Assembly (NCBI RefSeq): GCF_000317675.1
Contig: NC_019776.1
Location: 2,542,001-2,606,000 of the forward strand
Length of the DNA stretch: 64,000 bases
Source: Cyanobacterium aponinum PCC 10605
GTDB lineage: Bacteria; Cyanobacteriota; Cyanobacteriia; Cyanobacteriales; Cyanobacteriaceae
Reading direction: 5' to 3'
Shown here: one piece after another, positions 417 through 44,782 of the stretch
How the letters are laid out: each line of letters starts with the position of its first letter
Position numbering within the stretch: the first letter of the stretch is position 1
Notes under the pieces: generated by a model
The model's database searches: none
Told to the model about the DNA's origin: nothing
Seen by the model: the letters and a program-made list of their open reading frames with translations, nothing else
Translations under genes and position numbers: made by a program

Positions 417-1544
417 TTACCACTTAGTTTTTTTGGAAAAATAGAACTTAAACCATCCTCTTTGCCAGAAAAAGAAAAGCATTAATAAGGCAATACTTAA
501 CATTAATAGTAAACATAAAAAATACCCCCAATGCCACTCTAATTCAGGCATAAATTCAAAATTCATACCATAAATTCCAGCGATAAAAGTTAGGGGGATA
601 AAAATACTAGAAATAATAGTTAATAACGTTACAACTTCGTTCATTTTATTACTCATAGAGGACATTAAAACATCCATTAAACTAGAGGCTAATTCCCTGT
701 AAGTTTCTAATATATCTAGTATTTGAATGGTATGGTAATAACAATCTCGAAAATAGATGTAAACCTCTTTACTGATAAGTTCATTTTCTTCTCTTGTCAG
801 TTGATTAAATAAATTTCTTAGAGGCCAAATAGAACGTCTTAAAGCTAATAATTCTCTCCTAATATTATAGATTTCTTTGAGAGTTTTTTGAGTGGGATCT
901 GCGACGATTAAATCCTCTAATAATTCTATCCTTTCTCCATAATCTTCTAATACGGGAAAGTAATTATCAATCAATGTATCTAATATTAAATATGCTAAAT
1001 AATCAGCTCCTAAATTTCTAACTTTTCCTTGATTATTTTTGATGCGATCGCGCAATTTAGAAAAATCATCTATGGCATCTTCTTGAAAAGTTAATAAATA
1101 GTTTTTTCCTAAAACAAGGCTAATTTGTTCAGAAGTAAAACCCATTTCATTGGAATTAGGTTTAATGCAATGTAAAATTATCAATAATTGATTTTGACAA
1201 TCCTCTAATTTTGGTCTTTGAGGCACATTGACCACATCTTCAAGAATTAAAGGATGTAATCTAAAAACCTCAGCAATTTCACGTAAAATCTTTTCACTGC
1301 CCAAACCCTGAATATCTGCCCAAGAAACTAAGTCATTATTCAAACAAGATTGACAATCTTTCGGTTGAATATCAGATTTTTTATAAGCCTTAATGGGATT
1401 ATATTCAATCAGATTAATATGAGTGGGTAAAGCCTCTGGATCGATTATAATGCTACCGGGTTCACTACCCGGTTCATCATAGTAATAATCGAAGTAGTCT
1501 TCTTCTTGGATTTCCATTTCTGGAGGAAAAGGCTGCGCTCGCAT
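417..1544 (-). CDS. corA: CorA family magnesium/cobalt transport protein
   Basis: Divalent-cation channel of the inner membrane (Mg2+, possibly Co2+). The 375-residue product has the family layout: a long cytoplasmic alpha/beta and helical N-terminal domain, then two closely spaced C-terminal membrane helices at about 308-326 and 343-363. The signature YGMN that closes the pore-lining first helix is at about 325-328, followed by an acidic and tryptophan-containing loop (MPELEWHW). The extreme C-terminus is basic (FYFSKKTKW), as expected on the cytoplasmic side. It is transcribed alone, downstream of and codirectional with the formaldehyde dehydrogenase gene. Whether it carries Mg2+, Co2+ or Zn2+ cannot be told from sequence. 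Confidence 0.93.
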   Translation of the reverse strand: MRAQPFPPEMEIQEEDYFDYYYDEPGSEPGSIIIDPEALPTHINLIEYNPIKAYKKSDIQPKDCQSCLNNDLVSWADIQGLGSEKILREIAEVFRLHPLILEDVVNVPQRPKLEDCQNQLLIILHCIKPNSNEMGFTSEQISLVLGKNYLLTFQEDAIDDFSKLRDRIKNNQGKVRNLGADYLAYLILDTLIDNYFPVLEDYGERIELLEDLIVADPTQKTLKEIYNIRRELLALRRSIWPLRNLFNQLTREENELISKEVYIYFRDCYYHTIQILDILETYRELASSLMDVLMSSMSNKMNEVVTLLTIISSIFIPLTFIAGIYGMNFEFMPELEWHWGYFLCLLLMLSIALLMLFFFWQRGWFKFYFSKKTKW

Positions 1545-27868: not shown

Positions 27869-28173
27869 GGGGGCGTGGCGGAATGGTAGACGCTACGGAC
27901 TTAAGGAAAATTGAGCCTTGTGAGGGAAACCTTATAAGTGTAAGTTCTCAAATTCAGGGAAACCTAAGTCATCTTTTTTTGATAGGGCAATCCTGAGCCA
28001 AGCCGAGAAATCGGAAGGTGCAGAGACTCGACGGGAACTACCCTAACGGTTCAAGCCGAGGGTAAAGAGAGAGTCCAATTCTTAAAGCTAGACTTAGCAG
28101 TAACGAAAGTTGCAGAAGAATGAAAATCCGTTGACCTTAAACGGTCGTGAGAGTTCAAGTCTCTCCGCCCCCA
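27869..28173 (+). tRNA. trnL-UAA: tRNA-Leu(UAA) interrupted by a group I intron
   Basis: The 5' exon (27869-27902) starts GGGGGCGTGGCGGAATGGTA and ends GGACTT; the 3' exon (28123-28173) starts AAAATCCGTTGACC and ends CTCTCCGCCCCCA. Spliced, the acceptor stem GGGGGCG/CGCCCCC, anticodon stem ACGGA/TCCGT and loop CTTAAAA give anticodon UAA with a long variable arm typical of tRNA-Leu. The final A is the discriminator; CCA is not encoded. Confidence 0.97.
27903..28122 (+). ncRNA. Group I self-splicing intron in trnL-UAA
   Basis: 220-nt intron inserted after the U of the anticodon wobble position. Core elements of the cyanobacterial tRNA-Leu intron (subgroup IC3) are present: AATTGAGCCTTG (P1 region), TCAGGGAAACCTAAGTC (P, near 27952), CAATCCTGAGCCAAGCCG (Q, near 27989), GTGCAGAGACTCGACGGGAA (R and G-binding site), GAGAGAGTCCAATTCTTAAAG (S, split here at GAGAGAGTCCAATTC and TTAAAG) and the terminal G. 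No homing endonuclease frame. The same intron occurs in chloroplast tRNA-Leu. Confidence 0.95.
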
Positions 28174-34815: not shown

Positions 34816-36036
34816 ATGAAACAACGATATAACTATAGAATTCATCCTACGTCACAGCAAGAACAGTTGTTAGCTCAACTGTTTGGTTGTTGTCGTGTGG
34901 TTTATAATGATGGGGTAGCGTTGTGTCAGCAAATCTATAAAGAAGGAGGTAAAAAACCAAGTAATAGTGAACTTCAAAAACTGTTAATCACCCAAGCCAA
35001 GAAAACTGAAAAAAGAGAATGGTTGTCAAAGGTTAGTGCAATCCCTTTGCAACAATCACTAAATGATTTTAACATCGCCTATCAGAACTTTTTTAATTCC
35101 TGTCAGGGAAAAAGAAAGGGAAAAAAAGTAAAACCGCCTAAGTTTAAGTCGAGAAAATCAAATCAATCAGCACGGTTCACTCGTGGTGGTTTTAAAGTTG
35201 GGCAACATAAAATTAAGTTGGCAAAAATAGGTAAAGTAAAAATTATCTGGTCAAGAAAATTGCCTAACCCACCATCATCGGCAACAGTGATCAAAGATTC
35301 TGCCAGTCGGTATTTTATTTCTTTTGTGGTGGAGACAATCCCTGAAAAATTGCCTGACAATGGTCAAAGTGTGGGGATTGATTTAGGAATTGAAACTTTT
35401 GCAACTCTAAGCAATGGGCAAAAGATAAAATCTTCTAAACCATTAAAGAAATATCAAAGGAAACTGAGACGTTGCCAGAGAAATTTAAGTAGAAAGAAAA
35501 AAGGGAGTAAAAGAGATGAAAAGGCAAGAAAAAGAGTAGCTAAAGTTCACAGTAAAATAAAAGACACTCGCACTGATTTTCTACATAAATTGTCAACGGA
35601 TATTATTCGTGAAAACCAAACGATAGTATTAGAAGATTTGAACGTCAGTGCCATGGTAAAAAACCGTAAATTAAGTAAAGCAATTAGCGATCTGGGATGG
35701 GGTACATTTAGGACTCTGCTAGAAGCAAAATCTGTAATGTATGGTAGAGAGTTTATTGTGATTGATCGGTGGATACCAACATCTCAAGTATGTTCTAATT
35801 GTGGATTTAATGGCGGTAAAAAAGAATTAAATATAAGAGAATGGACTTGCATTAATTGCGGTGTAGTGCATGATCGTGATATTAATGCAAGTAAAAATAT
35901 CTTAGTCGCTGGAGGGCATTCAGAGACTTTAAACGGACGTGGAGCAGGGCGTAAGACTAGCATAAAGTTAGCAGTAGGCGATGAAGCGTCAACCCACCGA
36001 GAGATTAGATTTAAGCACTTAAGTCTATTCCAGTAG
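34816..36036 (+). CDS. tnpB: TnpB RNA-guided endonuclease (IS200/IS605 family)
   Basis: 406-residue Cas12-ancestor nuclease, which with its omega RNA cuts sites next to a short motif and helps keep the element in place. RuvC residues appear intact: Asp in VGIDLGIETFA (about 187), Glu in IVLEDLNVSAM (about 271) and Asp in HDRDINASKN (about 353), with the four-cysteine finger CSNCGF/CINCG between them. The N-terminal start MKQRYNYRIHPTSQQEQLL is typical. Its C-terminal coding part and the right end would form the omega RNA. No tnpA nearby. Probably active as protein. Confidence 0.93.
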   Translation: MKQRYNYRIHPTSQQEQLLAQLFGCCRVVYNDGVALCQQIYKEGGKKPSNSELQKLLITQAKKTEKREWLSKVSAIPLQQSLNDFNIAYQNFFNSCQGKRKGKKVKPPKFKSRKSNQSARFTRGGFKVGQHKIKLAKIGKVKIIWSRKLPNPPSSATVIKDSASRYFISFVVETIPEKLPDNGQSVGIDLGIETFATLSNGQKIKSSKPLKKYQRKLRRCQRNLSRKKKGSKRDEKARKRVAKVHSKIKDTRTDFLHKLSTDIIRENQTIVLEDLNVSAMVKNRKLSKAISDLGWGTFRTLLEAKSVMYGREFIVIDRWIPTSQVCSNCGFNGGKKELNIREWTCINCGVVHDRDINASKNILVAGGHSETLNGRGAGRKTSIKLAVGDEASTHREIRFKHLSLFQ

Positions 36037-44000: not shown

Positions 44001-44241
44001 GTGGAATCCTGCGGTGGAAAATCAGGCGACAGATAGAGCATATCGTATTGGACAAAAACAAAATGTTCAAGTGCATAAATTTGTTTGCAGTGGTACTTTG
44101 GAAGAAAAAATCAATGATATTTTGGAAAGTAAACAACAGTTAGCAGAACAAACAATTAATAGCGGAGAAGATTGGTTAACTAACCTTGATACCGATCAAC
44201 TAAGAGAGTTGCTTATTCTGGAAAGAAGCGCAATTATTTAA
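41098..44241 (+). CDS. SNF2/Swi2-family DEAD/DEAH helicase
   Basis: 1047-residue bacterial SNF2 ATPase (HepA/RapA-like group), likely a DNA translocase acting in repair or transcription. An N-terminal bacterial SNF2-associated region runs to about residue 480; then motif I DDMGLGKTIQLIAFIL (about 596), motif II DEAQ (about 700, with IILDEAQNIKNPQ), motif III ALTGTPVENRL, and C-terminal helicase motifs SLKAGGTGLNLT and NQATDRAYRIGQKQ (about 978). Full length with all motifs. It stands alone, preceded by a long AT-rich spacer. Confidence 0.93.
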   Translation: MSILHGSFLIKKEEKYFIIWGEKWRNIEKEKFDLEAEFLYIYPFLIEDKQELGELLKQNSLGGIISDEAINNEDPESFWQWEMALFPVQKKPKSKTVIPLLYEHYLGISNKLSSVILYPWDVCGVKLSMDQLLRLLQQLPLNKVDYIAPDLRFWSHVYRWSLDLICRQKFIPSIDEKNNCFWQPLLDSNIDQGRLAHFIQLMPSICRCYVENEDDPNIPQQKLILEFLATILDAQIRCLLTNISTPVNNELMVQTWLESLNSEEKSKCHLSSLDNKRLQMAFDNWTLPIQENLISSDYQLVKKQYRLCFKLQPPSGQNQTDNYDNWKLDYYLQAIDNPDFLIPTEQIWLHPHPQLEIGDRIIDNPQEIILKGLGLAAKFYEPIAESLQESMPNYCSLNAISAYQFIRSAVWQLQDNGLGIILPNGLNSGVDEKRLGVKIEAKVNLKKGERLNLNTLLNYNLKVAVGDKTLTKKEFQNLLAQKSPIVEIDGQWLALQPADVKAAEDILNNTDSGTNLTVEDALRLSSGNSETIAKLPVVAFESSGALADLINSINDNQKVEVLSSPKDFQGTLRPYQELGFSWLYFLQKWNLGGCLADDMGLGKTIQLIAFILTLKEKKELNKPSLIVAPTSVLNNWAREIKKFAPSLNALIHHGDNRSKEKEFVKTSKKLDIIITSYSLVYRDFDTLNLVEWQGIILDEAQNIKNPQAKQTQAVHELNSEFRIALTGTPVENRLSELWSILEFLNPGYLGTQQFFQRRFTLPIEKYGDQHSLQTLRSLVQPFILRRLKTDKNIIQDLPEKQEMNVYCGLSSEQAQLYQNLVDESLEKINETTGIKRHGLVLTLLMKLKQVCNHPAHLLKEEKLNFSSRSGKLLRLEEMLEEVVAEGDRSLIFTQFAEWGNLLQPYLRKKLGVEVLFLSGSTKTEKRQEMVDRFQNDPQGPPIFILSLKAGGTGLNLTRANHVFHYDRWWNPAVENQATDRAYRIGQKQNVQVHKFVCSGTLEEKINDILESKQQLAEQTINSGEDWLTNLDTDQLRELLILERSAII

Positions 44242-44249
44242 TGATATGA

Positions 44250-44535
44250 AACGAGGGAGGAATCCTGACTTTCAATATAACGAAGTAGGCAACCTCGGTT
44301 CGTTTGACGAATATTCCTTGAAGACTCTCACCATTAAATCAATAGATTGTAATGGGAGATTCTGAACTGCAATTACTTGCAATTCCCTCCTCTATCACGA
44401 GGGTTGCTAGGCTGACTGGTACTTACCTTACTGGGTCATACATCCATCTAGGAAACCTAGACACCATGCCAATTCATGGTTAGCCGTGACTCTCGGAGGG
44501 ACTCCCCGTAGGTGGACGTTAACTCCACATCATTA
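44250..44535 (-). ncRNA. Orphan IscB omega RNA (HEARO-like structured RNA)
   Basis: Read on the minus strand, about 280 nt rich in hairpins and with no frame: GTGGA-GTTAACG-TCCAC (44528-44512), ACCATG-AATTGG-CATGGT, CTAGG-TTT-CCTAG and CGAACCGAGGTTGCC, ending AAAGTCAGGATTCCTCCC. The order of the CATGGT stem, short CCTAG hairpin, CCCAGTAAGGTAAG and ACCAGTCAGCCTAGCAACCC resembles the core of known IscB omega RNAs (stem, then a GxCAGTTGAT-GGAGCAAT-like pseudoknot strand). No IscB or IsrB gene lies on either side; the RNA's 3' end is close to the SNF2 stop. Identification is by recall of the motif, not a model search. Confidence 0.6.
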
Positions 44536-44782
44536 ATCATAGCATAACGTTGGCATTGTAGGGTTCAACGGCCGTTGAACCCTACATCTCACTCTACTCA
44601 AACTTGTTATTTAATGGGAGTCTTACGTCAACAAGATAATATTTCATATTAAAATTATCAATCCCTAAAAGTAAAACACTGCTTTCTCAAAAATACAAGA
44701 CCTATTTTTATTTCATGATAACATACTTAAAACAATACCTCAATAATGCTCAATAAGACTCCGACAGAAGCCTTCAAGTTAC
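44536..44782. other. Spacer between structured RNA and tRNA-Asp
   Basis: Contains one palindrome, GTAGGGTTCAACGGCCGTTG then AACCCTAC (about 44559-44586), a perfect 14-bp inverted repeat likely to act as a bidirectional terminator or a small dispersed palindrome. No gene. Confidence 0.65.

Follow-up and report, generated by a model that had tools for sequence, protein, structure and literature searches.

The window analysed here is a stretch of 64,000 nucleotides from the genome of Cyanobacterium aponinum PCC 10605. One of its non-coding gaps, bordered by an SNF2-type helicase gene (identified by its translated sequence) on one side and by a tRNA gene on the other, holds a short repeated element on the minus strand. 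The initial annotation had read positions 44250-44535 as an orphan omega RNA of the IscB type (HEARO). Its description of the letters was accurate, as the stretch is non-coding and the strings it quoted are all found on the minus strand in the order given. The span that it proposed does cover the RNA; the 68 bases from 44250 to 44317 are flanking DNA, except for a predicted guide of about 16 nt, and the left end was missed, the element reaching 44635. The features of the locus, together with the TnpB gene discussed below, are as follows.

44302..44317, minus strand (read 44317-44302): predicted guide GGAATATTCGTCAAAC, a 16-nt piece of the flank on the 3′ side of the right end, assigned by homology to TnpB reRNA (PMC8612924)
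44318..44635, minus strand: non-autonomous IS200/IS605-type element of 318 bp whose only cargo is a TnpB omega RNA, delimited by repeat boundaries and the empty sites of sister copies
44318..44362, minus strand: right-end hairpin GAATCTCCC...GGTGAGAGTC plus terminal TTCAA, which is the 3′ end of the scaffold
44352..44524, minus strand: omega RNA (reRNA) scaffold, 173 nt with eight helices, from a 188-bit match to covariance model R1, covariation and homology to the RNA at tnpB 3′ ends
44536..44544, minus strand: extended -10 element TGCTATGAT, situated 20 nt upstream of the RNA as modelled; sister copies read TGCTATAAT and TGATATAAT
44558..44585, no strand assigned: perfect palindrome of 28 bp, GTAGGGTTCAACGGCCGTTGAACCCTAC, between the left end and the promoter motif
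44603..44635, minus strand: left-end hairpin CTTGTT...AACAAG, from sequence, a compensatory change and homology to the cognate tnpB element
44636..44639, minus strand: target site and presumed TAM, TTAT (TTATC if the element's first base is included)
C1:2789550-2791016, minus strand: cognate TnpB, an open frame of 489 aa without internal stop, about 200 kb from the window copy

Copies and ends of the element

Besides the window copy, the genome carries five near-full copies (C1 1854k, 1558k, 1325k, 1587k and 4077k) and a partial one at 1400k. A search for further omega RNA copies was among the checks that the initial annotation had suggested, and the repetition itself had been overlooked. The ends were fixed by comparison with a sister species (G001), in which two insertion sites of sister copies are empty and TTAT is joined directly to the 3′ flank. 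These junctions indicate that the element begins with C and finishes with TCAA, and at both sites the insertion was clean, with no target duplication. The empty site of the window copy was also sought in this species and none was found there, because the locus is rearranged. The left-end hairpin is preserved by a compensatory change in copy c1325k, where it reads CTCGTT...AACGAG. Of 27 stand-alone elements of the main type, 25 have TTATC on the 5′ side of the left end, where 6.9 would be expected, and the tnpB element of the same genome has it there too. The right-end hairpin terminating in TCAA was present at 43 out of 44 stand-alone loci and at all 31 tnpB-borne ones, and right ends resembling that of the element also follow other tnpB genes. 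Altogether, the subterminal hairpins at left and right, the constant target motif and the clean insertion that define IS200/IS605 elements were all found. By their sequence, the ends would suit a Y1 transposase (TnpA) working in trans; the genome contains ten Y1 transposase matches.

The copies differ in what lies between the left end and the RNA. The 28-bp palindrome has a counterpart in copy c1558k and is missing from c1854k and c1325k; it probably arose by a nested insertion or was left behind by recombination. In copy c4077k, about 85 bp are inserted between the promoter motif and the RNA. An open reading frame common to the stand-alone loci was sought as a possible cis partner, and only unrelated or antisense matches were obtained; the idea of a hidden protein partner encoded in cis was rejected on this ground. 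An ORF of the group II intron reverse-transcriptase type lies just upstream, on the same strand, at three loci (copies 1587k and 4077k of this genome, L005 and L006, and L110 in genome G053), and at the first two Rfam recognises a group II intron domain V/VI whose end is a short distance upstream of the stand-alone RNA. A group II intron fragment was likewise rejected as the identity of the RNA, since the introns are separate units that are missing from the other copies. The window also holds a group I intron at 27893-28099 on the plus strand (RF00028, 93 bits). Elsewhere, a right-end-like hairpin, GAATCACCC...GTGTCAA, is located downstream of a tnpA gene (L039, G000:C1:1793137-1796505, positions 460-498, minus strand). 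Upstream of this hairpin, the same strand has a long non-coding region without R1 match, and the locus could possibly hold a further stand-alone RNA.

The RNA scaffold and its TnpB relatives

The RNA runs from about 44524 down to the element end at 44318, roughly 205 nt on the minus strand. The hairpin-rich structure claimed for the stretch was borne out by folding against shuffled sequences, with z-scores of -3.0 for 44240-44560 and -3.7 for 44318-44524. A free alignment of 11 gene-less copies out of six genomes, from which R1 was built, showed changes on both sides in 21 of its 41 consensus pairs. When 75 loci were aligned, double changes were seen in 39 of 42 pairs, and 93.9% of the cells were paired, compared with 65.5% in shuffles and at most 46% with slid partners; this larger alignment was fitted to the structure, so the count from the free alignment is the safer one. 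The structure of the window RNA is real. Among its 173 positions, 42 are conserved in the stand-alone and the tnpB-borne classes alike. In the omega RNA of ISDra2, a pseudoknot has been seen. No Rfam family fitted the window RNA at E values up to 10, the other families giving chance matches only, to eukaryotic miRNA and snoRNA models, and a scan of GTDB contigs with the pattern GGTCAGCCTAGYAACCC returned only unrelated matches in Nocardia and others. The RNA represents an omega RNA family without entry in Rfam 15.

Across the order of the host, R1 detected the RNA in at least 67 of 391 genomes; the figure is a minimum, as scoring was limited to the seven best candidates of each genome. We examined 75 loci, of which 31 overlap the 3′ end of a TnpB homologue of about 485 aa on the same strand and 44 are stand-alone without tnpB, a proportion that favours the latter because R1 was built from stand-alone copies. 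Since the RNA is shared with tnpB 3′ ends at these 31 loci, its identity as a TnpB omega RNA (reRNA) is near certain. Such RNAs derive from the terminal part of tnpB together with the right end of the element, and the flanking DNA provides a guide of about 16 nt (PMC8612924). As in TnpB RNAs generally, the guide is predicted at the 3′ side of the RNA: the 3′ flank after TCAA varies between copies, and TTAT stands at the junction. The 5′ guide that had been placed at 44530-44550 gave way to the promoter-like extended -10 described below.

The host genome encodes exactly one TnpB of the R1-linked family at E 1e-60 or better. This protein contains the Pfam domains OrfB_IS605 and Cas12f1-like_TNB, scores 267.7 bits against NCBIfam guided_TnpB (cut-off 100) and is intact, the RuvC D, E, D motifs and the Zn ribbon being visible in its sequence. 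The 3′ end of its gene carries the same RNA (R1 64 bits, E 5e-15). At the left end, this tnpB element shares 38 of 50 positions with sister copy c1854k, and three of the four copies compared reached local scores of 33-57, whereas no shuffle exceeded 24. Thus, the wider suggestion of a stand-alone OMEGA guide RNA served by a nuclease encoded elsewhere holds, and the nuclease would be TnpB, not IscB, given the 31 tnpB-linked loci and the single intact cognate TnpB. A different TnpB family is represented in the window itself by a full-length gene of 406 aa (34816-36036, plus strand); it is not the cognate one, and the R1 RNA is missing from its end. At the same threshold of E 1e-60, a TnpB of the R1-linked family was not found in two genomes with main-type stand-alone copies (G093 and G329) or in five with the second type (G029, G040, G220, G332 and G335), which may reflect loss, draft gaps or a different partner.

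Candidate promoter and lineage of the stand-alone RNAs

An extended -10 (TGnTAnnnT) precedes the RNA at 33 of the 44 stand-alone loci, mostly at -17 to -28, compared with 10% in shuffles. In front of tnpB-borne RNAs it occurs at 9 out of 31 loci, at scattered positions. A scan for a -35 box gave none that was convincing. The motif is a candidate promoter, and it seems that the stand-alone RNA has a promoter of its own in place of the tnpB gene.

An IQ-TREE tree of 73 distinct RNAs contains a branch (support 91/94) that splits 39 stand-alone RNAs from all 31 tnpB-borne ones; the tree is unrooted, and the direction of change cannot be read from it. The stand-alone or tnpB label changes 4 times on this tree, compared with 24 times in shuffles. 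Three stand-alone RNAs that look decayed are placed elsewhere, and the window copies cluster closely together (99/99) inside the stand-alone side, which spans at least nine family codes. The stand-alone RNAs look like a long-lived lineage. Since this lineage is apart from the tnpB-borne RNAs, recognition by present-day TnpB is not assured. A second stand-alone group from other genera (L155-L158, L163, L168, L169 and L129) has a conserved upstream block, GCCGTGAATATGGTAnAAT...TCAGTACAAGACTTTAAAACCTACC.

Proposed use of TnpB in trans, alternatives and significance

TnpA excises IS200/IS605 elements in single-stranded form and leaves a junction of target motif and flank (PMC8612924; restated in PMC11870625), and it has been proposed that TnpB, guided by the element's own RNA, cuts this junction and thereby lets repair bring the copy back (PMC8612924; PMC11870625). 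The stand-alone element has every cis part for this TnpA/TnpB cycle, and only the proteins are missing. We consider it quite probable that it is a gene-less IS200/IS605-family element whose sole content is a TnpB omega RNA and which uses the cognate TnpB in trans for its retention. Specifically, a Y1 transposase supplied in trans would mobilise the element, with insertion 3′ of TTAT and a TCAA end. The extended -10 promoter would drive a transcript comprising the scaffold, the right-end hairpin and, as guide, about 16 nt from the adjoining DNA. Loaded with this RNA, the one cognate TnpB, whose gene is some 200 kb distant, would cleave the TTAT-guide junction recreated at each excision by TnpA, and repair from the sister chromosome would put the element back. 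A scaffold and ends that are kept, together with a promoter that is added, are what would be expected from selection for use in trans.

The same locus could be read as a MITE, an inactive remnant left by deletion in a tnpB element, in which the RNA is a functionless leftover of the right end spread passively by TnpA. MITEs derived from IS200/IS605 elements are common, one of the copies is damaged by an insertion and another is a fragment, and transcription of the element is predicted from its sequence. However, the RNA covaries inside the stand-alone lineage, the promoter motif is conserved at near-fixed spacing and is missing there in the tnpB-borne copies, and a scaffold of about 170 nt has been kept over at least nine family-level groups, whereas the ends would suffice for the transposase. 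For these reasons, we regard a passive leftover as unlikely. A guide RNA domesticated for regulation, which would steer TnpB or a relative without nuclease activity to a gene of the chromosome, is far less probable still. What speaks for it is one near match to TAM plus guide, TTATGGAATATTTGTCAAA (G000:C1:3565228-3565246, L225), with one mismatch over 19 nt, inside an ORF of 506 aa; this site is possibly an off-target, a regulatory target or a chance match. A lone match found post hoc is weak evidence, the guides differ among copies at unrelated sites, as in a mobile element, and the catalytic motifs of the cognate TnpB are intact.

The probability of a divergent IscB/IsrB omega RNA is close to nil; what recommends it is a superficial resemblance in strings such as AGTCAGCCTAGCAACCC and the compact build of an RNA with many hairpins. 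We rejected the HEARO identity: the covariance model (RF02033) found nothing in the window, the genome or 12 loci with copies or relatives at E up to 10, while the same model, as positive control, gave matches above cut-off in 65 of 149 genomes from the host's order, and at 31 loci the same RNA adjoins tnpB and not iscB. Genuine HEARO sequences from the order precede iscB and differ in look from the window RNA. The absence of IscB noted in the initial annotation extends to the whole genome, an RRXRR/IscB search of which was empty (the control genomes were silent too).

Among known systems, the TnpB reRNAs of ISDra2 and IS608 are similar in being structured RNAs that end at the right end and take their guide from 3′ DNA (PMC8612924, PMC10097598). 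The relatives of the window RNA likewise overlap tnpB 3′ ends, and a target/TAM motif lies 5′ of the left end in each case: TTGAT in ISDra2, TTAC in IS608 and TTAT here (PMC8612924, PMC10097598). In contrast to both, the present element lacks tnpB, has a candidate promoter of its own instead of the tnpB transcript, and bears a multi-branched scaffold outside Rfam 15. The closest precedent is provided by the Fanzor 'ghost' loci of Spizellomyces punctatus, in which transposon ends and an omega RNA without nuclease gene occur in many copies with a retained TAM-like motif (PMC10432273). As in the window lineage, the ghost scaffold differs from that of the nuclease-bearing loci, and omega RNAs from these Fanzor-less loci functioned with SpuFz1 in human-cell assays (PMC10432273). 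The ghosts are eukaryotic and have inverted-repeat ends, whereas here the nuclease would be a bacterial TnpB, the ends are of the IS200/IS605 type, a candidate promoter is present and many genera are involved. With the stand-alone IscB omega RNAs (HEARO), the element shares the principle of a stand-alone OMEGA guide whose nuclease would be encoded elsewhere; it differs in the RNA, the nuclease and the end that carries the guide (5′ in IscB, 3′ here). Such IscB omega RNAs reportedly work with a nuclease encoded elsewhere, as Altae-Tran is said to have found in 2021. IS200/IS605-derived MITEs named PATEs, small and gene-less elements of archaea and cyanobacteria, have IS200/IS605 ends and are moved in trans. 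They are described by their ends, whereas the window element keeps a full covarying guide-RNA scaffold and a promoter motif. In a literature search, which covered the subscription literature in part, no description of bacterial stand-alone TnpB RNAs came to light. The parts (a TnpB omega RNA and an IS200/IS605 element) are known, and the form, in which the element carries only a guide RNA preceded by a promoter motif of its own, appears to be new.

The stand-alone RNAs may further constitute a selfish, long-lived lineage of RNA-only homing elements that comprise two transposon ends, a promoter and a guide RNA; the lineage would evolve apart from the tnpB elements and be parasitic on TnpA and TnpB across many cyanobacterial families. 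We put the chances of this broader reading at about even. The element also predicts a TAM, TTAT, for a cyanobacterial TnpB. TnpB is thought to aid the survival of its own element. If gene-less elements use the TnpB of another element, this benefit would be obtainable in trans, which would explain the persistence of miniature elements. The genome would then offer a testable natural system with one nuclease gene, six natural guides and known targets. If true, a single nuclease would naturally be served by several guides, which would be a step in the direction of CRISPR-like guide sets.
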